64,000 nucleotides of DNA, taken from positions 2,294,001 through 2,358,000 of the forward strand of contig NZ_CP120468.1 in the NCBI RefSeq assembly GCF_029490015.1, read 5' to 3'. Made by a program: the position numbers and the translations under genes. Positions 17,605-20,938 of this stretch are shown in pieces. The notes beneath the pieces were generated by a model. It did not search any database. It was not told the origin of the DNA and saw only the letters and a program-made list of their open reading frames with translations. The stretch's first letter is position 1, and each line of letters begins with the position of its first letter. This DNA comes from Halobaculum limi. GTDB lineage: Archaea > Halobacteriota > Halobacteria > Halobacteriales > Haloferacaceae.

Positions 17605-17830
17605 ACTCGCTCACGCGCAGCCAGCGGTATAAACCTGCGTCAGACAGACGGATGACCCACTACAGCCCCCGTATCGGCCGAATTCGGTAGATTACGCATC
17701 TCTACGAGCCTGTTCGAACCCCGACGCCGTAAACGCTTTCGTGCTATATCGAATCTGCGGGATCGGTGACGGGGGTGGCCGACCCGGCCGGTCGGCCGCG
17801 GTCAAGACGCTCCACCGTCGGCACCACCGG

Positions 17831-17840
17831 CTTTCATACG
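17831..17840 (+). promoter_or_regulatory. TATA-like box of the DUF21 gene
   Basis: CTTTCATACG is centred about 28 bases before the ATG at 17864. It supports that start over upstream in-frame codons. Confidence 0.4.
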
Positions 17841-17863
17841 CGTACCCACGCACGAATCGCATA

Positions 17864-18379
17864 ATGAGTACATACTCGATTCTGGTTCCGTCACTCCTCG
17901 CAGTCGCGGTCCTGTTGGCGATGAGTGCGTTCTTCTCCAGCAGTGAGTCGGCAATCTTCTCGCTCCCGGACGAGTGGACGCAGACCGCCACTGAGGATGA
18001 TCCGAACGGGAGTACACTCCAGCGACTCCGCGAGGACCCACATCGCCTCTTGGTCACGTTGCTCGTCGGCAACAACCTCGTCAACATCGCCATCACCAGC
18101 ATCGTGACGCTCCTCGTCGCTCGGTTCGTTCCGCCGGGCTTCACCGTCGTGATAGCGACGATTACTGTGAGCGTTCTCGTCCTCGTGTTCGGAGAGATCG
18201 TCCCGAAGTCCTACGGCTTGGGACACGCGGAGTCGTGGAGCCTCCGCGTCGCCCGTCCGATCTCGTACGTCGAACGGGTGCTGAGTCCACTCGTCGCGTT
18301 GTTCGATATCGTCACTCGACGCCTGACTCGCCGTCTCGGAGGCGACCAACAGATCGAGAAGCCGTATCTCGACGACTGA
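17864..18379 (+). CDS. DUF21/CNNM transmembrane-domain protein without CBS domains
   Basis: 171-residue membrane protein. It matches the membrane part of the CNNM/CorC/hemolysin-C family: FFSSSESAIFSLP near the N-terminus, LVGNNLVNIAITSI in the middle and FGEIVPKSYG later. Full-length relatives continue with paired CBS domains and a CorC_HlyC domain and are linked to magnesium or cation efflux. Here the protein stops right after the DUF21 region (QQIEKPYLDD). It is either a natural short form or one needing a separate CBS partner. Confidence 0.8.
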   Translation: MSTYSILVPSLLAVAVLLAMSAFFSSSESAIFSLPDEWTQTATEDDPNGSTLQRLREDPHRLLVTLLVGNNLVNIAITSIVTLLVARFVPPGFTVVIATITVSVLVLVFGEIVPKSYGLGHAESWSLRVARPISYVERVLSPLVALFDIVTRRLTRRLGGDQQIEKPYLDD

Positions 18380-18485: not shown

Positions 18486-19406
18486 ATGAATACGCGCGCG
18501 CTTCGCGGAGTCCTCCTCGCGGGGCTGTTGTTCCTCGTCGTGCACGTGGGCGCAATCTCGCTGGCGCCCACGTTCGAGGCCGCCGGGTATCAGGCGGTCG
18601 AGAATCCGCAGAATCCGACCAACTCCGCCGCGTACGTCGGCGCGATCCTCGTCGTCACGGCGCTGATGCTCGCGGCGTTCAAGTACGACTTCGACTGGGC
18701 GGTTCGCCTCGTCATCGTCGGGTCGTCGGCGCTGCTGTCGTGGTACGTCTTCTCGGTGTACCTCCCGCAGATTCCGGCGCTCGCCGCCTCCGCGCTCGTC
18801 GCCGTCGCCCTCCTCGTGTACCCCGAGTGGTACGTCATCGACTCGGCGGGTGCGCTGATGGGCGCGGGCGCGGCGGGCCTGTTCGGCATCTCCTTCGGCA
18901 TCCTCCCGGCGCTCATCCTGTTGACCGTCCTCGCGGTGTACGACGCCATCTCCGTGTACGGCACCGAGCATATGCTCGACCTCGCGGAGGGCGTCCTCGA
19001 CCTCAACATCCCGGTCGTCCTCGTCATCCCGCTCGAGTGGTCGTATTCGCTGCTGTCGGAGGACGTCGGCGACGCGACAGAGGGAACCGAACCCGAAGAC
19101 CGCGACGTCTTCTTCATCGGCCTCGGTGACGCCGTGATGCCCGCGGTGATGGCCGCGTCGGCCGCACGGTGGTCGCCCGCCCCCGCGTTCGGCCTGCCGG
19201 GCGTCCCCGCGATGGGGCTGCCGTCGCTGCTGTCGGTCGTCGGGATGTTCGTCGGCCTCGGCATCCTCCTGCGGATGGTGCTGAAGGGCCGCCCACACGC
19301 CGGGCTTCCCCTGCTCAACGGCGGTGCGATAACGGGCTACCTCGTCGGGTCGCTCGTCGCCGGCGTGTCGCTTGTCGAGGCGCTCGGACTCGCGCCGTAT
19401 CTGTGA
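18486..19406 (+). CDS. Presenilin-family intramembrane aspartyl protease (PSH)
   Basis: 306 residues with nine or so hydrophobic segments. The two catalytic aspartates of the presenilin/signal peptide peptidase superfamily are evident: D153 in AVYDAISVYG and D215 in GLGD. The third landmark, the PAL-like loop, is GLPLLNGG at 273-280. Such proteases cut substrates inside the membrane; haloarchaeal substrates are unknown. The stop overlaps the GTG of the next gene (GTGA), a second presenilin-like protein, so the two are probably made together. Confidence 0.9.
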   Translation: MNTRALRGVLLAGLLFLVVHVGAISLAPTFEAAGYQAVENPQNPTNSAAYVGAILVVTALMLAAFKYDFDWAVRLVIVGSSALLSWYVFSVYLPQIPALAASALVAVALLVYPEWYVIDSAGALMGAGAAGLFGISFGILPALILLTVLAVYDAISVYGTEHMLDLAEGVLDLNIPVVLVIPLEWSYSLLSEDVGDATEGTEPEDRDVFFIGLGDAVMPAVMAASAARWSPAPAFGLPGVPAMGLPSLLSVVGMFVGLGILLRMVLKGRPHAGLPLLNGGAITGYLVGSLVAGVSLVEALGLAPYL

Positions 19407-20296
19407 GCGAGCGTCCCGCGGGGTCGAGGAACCCGCTGTCGGATCCACGAGTTCGCGGGGGTGCCGGCGTCACGGTGCTGTTTCTCGTCGTCCAACTGCT
19501 CGCGCTCGGCGTCGCCCCGCGGCTCTTGGGGGCGGGTGTCAGCTACGGCGACGGCGGCGACGCACTGGTCCCACTCGTCATCGGCCTCGTCGTCGGCACG
19601 CTCCTGTCGCTGGCCGTCGTCAGGTTCGGAACCAGCGAACGGGTCGTCAGAGGGCTGATGCTCGTGTCACTCGGGACCGCACAGTGGTTCGCGTTCGCCG
19701 CGTTCCTCGGTGCGGTCCCCGGGGTCGTCGCGGCGGCGGTCGGAACGCTCCTCGCGTGGCGCGTCCCACGCCCGGTCGTTCGCAACGCCGCCGCGGTCAT
19801 CGGCGTCGCCGGCGGTGCTGGGCTGTTCGGCGCGAGCCTCGCTCCCGTGTACGCCGCGGCGGCGTTGGTCGTCGCCGCCGGGTACGACGCCTACGCCGTC
19901 TACGGCTCCGGTTTTATGACCGACATCGCCGACGCGGGCGCAAAACTTCGCGTGCCGTCGATGTTCGTCGTGCCGACGGAAGACGGCTACGACGACTCCC
20001 GCCTCCGCGTCGGCGGGTCGGGAGCGCCCGCTGCGACGGTGCTGGGCGCTGGGGATGCGCTGTTTCCGGCGATGCTATCGGCGAGTCTCGCGGTCCACAC
20101 CGTCGGTCCCGCGGTGGCTGTCGGACAGGTGAGCGTGTCGTCAGCGGCGCTCGCATCGGTGCTCGGCTCGCTCGTCGGCGTCGTCGCGCTCCAGGTGTTC
20201 GTCCACCGCCGCGCCGGCGTCCACGCGGGCCTGCCGTTCGTCAACGCCGGAGCACTCCTCGGCTGGGGTGGGTGGCTCCTGGTGACCGCGATCTGA
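19403..20296 (+). CDS. Second presenilin-type intramembrane protease
   Basis: 297 residues from a GTG that overlaps the previous stop. It repeats the key features of its neighbour with many changes elsewhere: D162 in GYDAYAVYGSGF, D218 in GAGD, and GLPFVNAG at 276-283. Membrane segments surround these motifs in the same order. Both catalytic aspartates are kept, so it should be active or at least fold the same way. The overlap suggests a coupled pair, perhaps a heterodimer or two enzymes with different substrates. Confidence 0.82.
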   Translation: MSERPAGSRNPLSDPRVRGGAGVTVLFLVVQLLALGVAPRLLGAGVSYGDGGDALVPLVIGLVVGTLLSLAVVRFGTSERVVRGLMLVSLGTAQWFAFAAFLGAVPGVVAAAVGTLLAWRVPRPVVRNAAAVIGVAGGAGLFGASLAPVYAAAALVVAAGYDAYAVYGSGFMTDIADAGAKLRVPSMFVVPTEDGYDDSRLRVGGSGAPAATVLGAGDALFPAMLSASLAVHTVGPAVAVGQVSVSSAALASVLGSLVGVVALQVFVHRRAGVHAGLPFVNAGALLGWGGWLLVTAI

Positions 20297-20360: not shown

Positions 20361-20485
20361 TTATTTCGTCGCTTTCCCGACCCGGACCTGCGGGAGACCT
20401 GCGTGCTTGGGTCGCCACTCTGTCCCCGAGAGGGGAACGCGGGTACCCGCCCCCCGAGGGCCGGTCACTCCGGGCCGGCCCCCGA
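20361..20485 (+). ncRNA. Candidate structured small RNA between convergent genes
   Basis: An AT-rich TATA-like stretch (ATTTTATTTC, 20358-20367) stands alone in GC-rich DNA, and after it comes a chain of stem-loops. CGACCC 20378-20383 pairs with GGGTCG 20409-20414. CCCC-GAGA-GGGG 20424-20435 is a GNRA hairpin. GCGGGTACCCGC 20439-20450 is a perfect palindrome. GGGCCGG 20458-20464 pairs with CCGGCCC 20475-20481. The last stem runs into the end of the opposing PUA gene. It may be a small RNA, or part of it may be a bidirectional terminator. Ends are guesses. Confidence 0.35.
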
Positions 20486-20938
20486 TCTCACTTTCACCGC
20501 CATCCCCGACGAGAAGTCGCGCATCTCCGCGGCCGCCAGTTCCGCGCGACCGACGCCGAGTACCGTGCCGTCTTCGTGGACGACCACCACCTCGTCGCGC
20601 GGGCGGACGCTGTCGCCGACGTCGCTCACGAACTTGGCGAACACGTTCTTGCCGTCGCGCACGAACGGCGCGGACTCGTCGCCGACGACGACGCTGTACT
20701 CGGGGTGCGGGAGCGCCGACCGAAGGCGACGACCGCCTTCGACGCCGAGCGTGAAGCGGCCGTCCGTCCCGTACGAGACGATGCGGCCAGCGTCACACGT
20801 CACCTGTCGTGGCCGCCCACTCGTCGACCGGCGGACGGTGAGGTCCTCGTCGGTCGAGAACAGCGCCTCGCCCGCGCCCGCGCCGAACTGGTAGTCTGCA
20901 GCAGTCTGCAGGTCGTCGATGGTGGTGTCACCGCTCAT
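20465..20938 (-). CDS. PUA-domain protein
   Basis: 157 residues. The C-terminal half is a PUA RNA-binding domain: VGDESAPFVRDGKNVFAKFVSDVGDSVRPRDEVVVVHEDGTVLGVGRAELAA-type pattern, ending in GMAVKVRSG. The N-terminal half (LQTAADYQFGAGAGEALF) resembles the region before the PUA domain in archaeal tRNA-guanine transglycosylase-like proteins. It probably helps modify or bind tRNA or rRNA. The ATG overlaps the stop of the NYN-domain gene by four bases, so the two are coupled. Confidence 0.8.
   Translation of the reverse strand: MSGDTTIDDLQTAADYQFGAGAGEALFSTDEDLTVRRSTSGRPRQVTCDAGRIVSYGTDGRFTLGVEGGRRLRSALPHPEYSVVVGDESAPFVRDGKNVFAKFVSDVGDSVRPRDEVVVVHEDGTVLGVGRAELAAAEMRDFSSGMAVKVRSGAGPE

Follow-up and report, generated by a model that had tools for sequence, protein, structure and literature searches.

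An overlapping pair of genes encoding predicted presenilin-type intramembrane proteases in Halobaculum and a few sister genera

The occurrence of two consecutive, overlapping genes with the catalytic motifs of presenilins, a protease family linked to Alzheimer's disease, in the genome of Halobaculum limi raises the question of what a second member of this family might do directly behind the first. The original prediction, made from the DNA alone, had proposed an old duplication that led either to a two-subunit protease or to two enzymes acting on different substrates. Here, the window designates the whole stretch of DNA analysed, a haloarchaeal chromosome segment of 64,000 nucleotides (contig 1, positions 2294001 to 2358000), and P1 and P2 designate the products of the first (ORF1) and second (ORF2) gene of the pair.

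Gene organization and family assignment

ORF1 (18486..19406, + strand) encodes a 306-amino-acid protein with nine transmembrane segments (TM), and ORF2 (19403..20296, + strand) starts with a GTG codon and encodes a 297-amino-acid protein, also with nine TM. They share the four nucleotides GTGA (19403..19406, + strand; spacing of -4 nt), in which the final base of the last Leu codon of ORF1 and its TGA stop are also the first four bases of ORF2. Downstream, and outside the pair, a convergent gene encoding a TGT_C2/PUA-domain protein (20465..20938, - strand), the ancestral right neighbour of the gene for the archaeal presenilin homolog (PSH), marks the boundary of the locus. Just upstream of P1, a short gene (17741-18379, + strand) encodes the transmembrane domain of a CNNM protein only, the CBS/CorC part not being seen, and has no counterpart at the other pair-bearing loci examined.

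Profile searches assigned both proteins to the presenilin family, as had been predicted, the first of them being a canonical PSH. P1 matched the signal peptide peptidase (SPP)/presenilin profile PF06550 over its full length with 271.8 bits, and P2 with 78.3 bits over profile positions 3-274 of 283, both exceeding the curated threshold of 23.9 bits, so that an outcome in which P2 had no presenilin match was not observed. Against the more restrictive PSH equivalog NF041679 (NCBIfam, cut-off of 125 bits), P1 scored 356.8 bits and P2 124.1 bits, while three of four other P2 orthologs were above the cut-off (130.2, 140.9 and 131.4 bits) and one below (123.5 bits). The Methanoculleus PSH structure 4hyc was also matched over the full length by P1 (E=3e-49) and P2 (E=6e-17), and all these matches are far beyond chance. 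P1 and P2 share 32% sequence identity over 275 residues (E=5e-20), and are the only PF06550 matches of the genome; their likeness spans the whole length, contrary to the initial impression that they differ widely apart from the motifs.

The di-aspartyl motif set of GxGD proteases, with YD and GxGD in the adjacent TM6 and TM7 followed by a PAL/GLP motif, is complete in both proteins, the helices being placed from the structure models described below. In P1 it comprises Asp153 in the YD motif of TM6 (18942..18944), Asp215 in the GLGD motif of TM7 (19128..19130) and the PAL-type GLP motif at residues 273-275, at the start of TM9 (19302..19310), all on the + strand and invariant in all P1 and single-copy PSH. 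Its counterparts in P2, also on the + strand and invariant in the orthologs that cover these positions, are Asp162 in the YD motif of TM6 (19886..19888), Asp218 in the GAGD motif of TM7 (20054..20056) and GLP at residues 276-278, at the start of TM9 (20228..20236). The motif residues first reported agree exactly with the sequence, as do the coordinates and frames of the two genes and their overlap.

P1 is thus a plain member of the archaeal PSH family, whose reference is the Methanoculleus marisnigri protein MCMJR1 (4HYC/4HYG/4Y6K; PF06550, NF041679), and belongs to the same family as the Haloferax volcanii SPP HVO_1107, whose function is listed as unknown (PMC9263693). H. volcanii is listed with one gene of family A22, and unlike the P1-P2 locus lacks a second, coupled copy. 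P2 resembles the Methanoculleus protein in its nine-TM fold, its YD/GxGD/GLP motifs and its full-length alignment, but differs from methanogen PSH in its mean identity of about 26%, in the absence of PEW and of the residues conserved in the TM1-2 loop, in being basic rather than acidic, and in the coupling of its gene to a second PSH gene.

Predicted structures

The AlphaFold model of P2, built from a 10-row alignment, contains nine helices (pLDDT 84.3, pTM 0.86), and its best PDB matches with Foldseek are the PSH chains 4y6k, 4hyg and 4hyc, followed by human SPPL2a and presenilin 1 (PSEN1), in line with the fold and catalytic motifs that P2 shares with human presenilin (gamma-secretase) and SPP/SPPL2a. 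The P1 model shows nine long helices at low confidence (pLDDT 60.5), with a PSH as its top match too; the best hits of both models have a probability of 1.00. The single-chain predictions proposed at the outset returned a nine-helix, PSH-like model for each protein. Eukaryotic presenilin acts together with nicastrin, APH-1 and PEN-2, and a scan of the immediate neighbors of P1 and P2 found none of these genes.

Distribution and gene order

At least one PF06550 match was found in 390 of 391 Halobacteria genomes, nearly always as a single gene, and P1 is the ordinary, near-universal, ancestral haloarchaeal PSH. In the search for P2, true orthologs scored at least 196 bits, except for one fragment at a contig end (97 bits), and everything else remained below 100 bits. 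With these limits P2 is present in 17 of the 391 genomes, all within one GTDB family: 11 out of 11 Halobaculum (g1) and, in three further genera, two genomes of g6, three of g17 and one of g15, in which P2 is cut by the end of the contig. It always lies directly downstream of a PSH gene, and not one of the 391 genomes has P2 without P1. A sample of 247 genomes from the phylum contained no further tandem pair; the apparent doubles found there are single genes split by an insert, with the exception of one draft genome (two contigs, about 5% contamination). Conservation of the pair across Halobacteria, which the original prediction had put forward for checking, is thus rejected, and so is its opposite, an oddity or pseudogene of a single strain, given the presence of P2 in every Halobaculum genome and its dN/dS of about 0.1. 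What was borne out is the view of the second copy as an unusual coupled paralog, kept under selection in more than one strain and present in 17 genomes of four genera. A mobile or viral origin was also discarded, as P2 had no match among 72,556 plasmid and 50,697 phage records.

Gene order points to P2 as the added element. In 17 of 20 single-copy genomes of the family, the convergent PUA-domain gene follows PSH with no P2 between, at less than 240 bp in 14 of these 17, and an NYN-domain gene usually comes next beyond it. Wherever a pair-bearing genome covers this stretch, P2 sits exactly between the PSH and PUA genes. We thus prefer the addition of P2 at the ancestral PSH locus to the repeated loss of an ancestral pair, since the latter needs far more events. 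On the other side of P1, two Halobaculum loci (L073 and L074) have about 2 kb of extra sequence between a DUF7518 gene and P1.

The junction itself is also conserved. The P1 gene ends with CTG-TGA in all 16 pairs, and the in-frame GTGA overlap is found in 15 of them; in the remaining pair a GTG lies 10 nt further on. GTGA is absent from all 20 single-copy PSH stops of the same family. A chance occurrence of this overlap is unlikely from these counts, which come from pairs that share ancestry and are not independent.

Sequence change in P2

P2 is under purifying selection. Its differences are fewer at codon position 2 than at position 3 (0.135 vs 0.341), and within Halobaculum the median dN/dS of P2 is about 0.10 and that of P1 0.04, rough values since dS exceeds 1. 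Residues whose conservation in canonical PSH is 93% or more have been replaced in P2, notably in the TM1-2 loop (P41G, N46 lost, Y50L) and in the TM4-5/TM5 region (E114R, W115P in most orthologs, D119N). The mean net charge differs as well, being +2.6 for P2, -17.4 for P1 and -24.2 for single-copy PSH of the family, and the shift is mainly due to the N-terminus, to the TM2-3 and TM4-5 loops and to a shorter acidic TM6-7 loop. Such a basic character is unusual, other haloarchaeal PSH ranging from -10 to -40. The combination of kept catalytic residues and changed outer parts would fit an alteration of substrate or partner, and not a loss of its enzymatic function.

Possible role of the pair

In Haloferax an overlap of -4 is the commonest gene spacing, with 354 gene pairs (PMC10666635), and such overlaps are coupled by termination-reinitiation (PMC6728339, PMC10666635); of 14 overlapping pairs assayed in Haloferax and E. 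coli, 13 showed strictly coupled translation (PMC6728339). Because of these spacing and coupling results, translational coupling of P1 and P2 is likely by analogy, and a complex between them plausible.

Starting from the sequences, we consider it somewhat probable that the locus encodes a coupled pair of active presenilin proteases in which P2 is specialised for other substrates. P2 would have become established immediately after P1 in the ancestor shared by Halobaculum and a small number of sister genera, keeping the di-aspartyl machinery while losing the TM1-2 and TM4-5/TM5 residues mentioned above and acquiring a basic N-terminal, presumably cytosolic, face. Both genes would be read from one transcript, on which ribosomes ending P1 would reinitiate at GTGA and produce P2 in proportion. 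The two co-translated proteins, putative aspartyl proteases that act within the membrane and belong to the archaeal presenilin/SPP family (PSH, MEROPS A22-type), would sit parallel in the membrane with their N-termini inside. The di-aspartyl center that each carries on TM6/TM7 could in principle cleave transmembrane helices. P1 may retain the ancestral task, and P2 may apply the same chemistry to a different spectrum of substrates or partners, through sub- or neofunctionalization.

The main rival to two separate enzymes is a single hetero-oligomeric protease built from P1 and P2, with two catalytic centers and with the GTGA coupling setting the ratio of its subunits; we regard this as a tentative possibility, with arguments on both sides. 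Among H. volcanii gene pairs spaced from -8 to +10 nt, 45.2% encode heteromeric complexes against 5.6% at more than 20 nt, which leaves 54.8% of the close pairs encoding no complex (PMC10666635). The Methanoculleus PSH is tetrameric in crystals and migrates on BN-PAGE as monomer and dimer bands (PMC9282858), but is active alone when purified (PMC2947513). Association would also agree with the absence of P2 from any genome without P1, with the same predicted orientation of the two proteins, and with their complementary charges, the N-face loops of P2 being basic and the TM6-7 loop of P1 carrying -9 to -37; against it, nearly all haloarchaea have a PSH without P2. The stricter version, an obligate heteromer whose two divergent presenilin subunits, both putatively active, would come from one coupled transcript in a fixed ratio, is more doubtful still. 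If true, a prokaryote would have a presenilin complex containing two active sites, for which we found no description in the papers searched.

That P2 is instead a non-proteolytic pseudoenzyme or regulator, binding substrates or P1, appears improbable to us. Its fast evolution, the loss of residues that hardly vary in canonical PSH and the scores just under the NF041679 cut-off, both for P2 of the window and for that of H. gomorrense, could be taken in this sense, but Y161, both Asp, G215, G217, P222 and GLP are invariant in the P2 orthologs wherever covered while neighboring sites vary.

Tandem overlapping pairs of paralogous membrane proteins sometimes have opposite topologies, but an antiparallel insertion of P1 and P2 was rejected as very improbable, since Lys and Arg are almost confined to the N-terminal, TM2-3, TM4-5, TM6-7 and TM8-9 segments of both (7-12 in N-side vs 0-2 in opposite loops for P1, 9-22 vs 1-3 for P2), from which both are predicted to be N-in and parallel.

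Two enzymes with distinct substrates, the reading preferred here, would draw on a family, a fold and a chemistry that are already known; the conserved coupled pair is the new aspect, to the extent of the papers searched. These, which did not include the archaeal census of Raut et al. 2021 (PMID 32935885), contained no such pair, although an earlier mention is possible; nor did our literature search find a physiological substrate of any archaeal PSH, or activity, substrate or interaction results for P1, P2 or their orthologs. As a pair that occurs naturally throughout a genus, an ancestral PSH and a strongly shifted one, both with intact catalytic residues, could offer a handle on PSH substrates, and comparing P1 with P2 could show whether presenilin-type proteases act as heteromers without the cofactors of gamma-secretase. 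With its catalytic residues kept and usually invariant loop residues lost, P2 would also be a natural experiment on the parts of presenilin that choose the substrate.

Origin of P2 and unlinked copies

P2 sequences form one clade with full support, in which orthologs group by genus as those of P1 do, the order of the genera being weakly supported. This common grouping indicates that the pair was inherited together, and the part of the original prediction that called the duplication old holds in so far as the pair predates the split of four genera. Beyond that, the three trees, the AU tests and the saturated stem of P2 (between about 3 and 10 substitutions per site in different samples) give no firm date for the duplication and do not establish a greater age. 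In one tree P2 groups with unlinked PSH paralogs (support 98/99), a position flagged for long-branch attraction, to which the AU tests are open too (P2 and P1 as one clade rejected, p=0.008; P2 with all PSH of the family not rejected, p=0.08). Derived residues common to P2 and the family PSH were uninformative, with two for, one against and four neither. A local duplication of ORF1 followed by fast divergence is favored by gene order, and a descent of P2 from an older paralog by the trees.

The unlinked paralogs are second PSH copies dispersed in scattered haloarchaea, in genomes G160 (L139), G274 (L140), G223 (L082/L141) and G344 (L143), with a third copy in G173 (L142). All keep the YD/GxGD/GLP motifs. 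Like P2 they are divergent, and several share substitutions with it, such as T160S and G122A; unlike P2 they are unlinked to the main PSH gene, are acidic and retain PEW. Their sequences hint at either a wider second subfamily that may include P2 or convergence, a common ancestry being suggested on long branches only. Another sequence, L147 (G283, contig 31, 245030-245638), matches PF06550 very weakly (49.9 bits), has an extreme branch length and is a doubtful relative of PSH.
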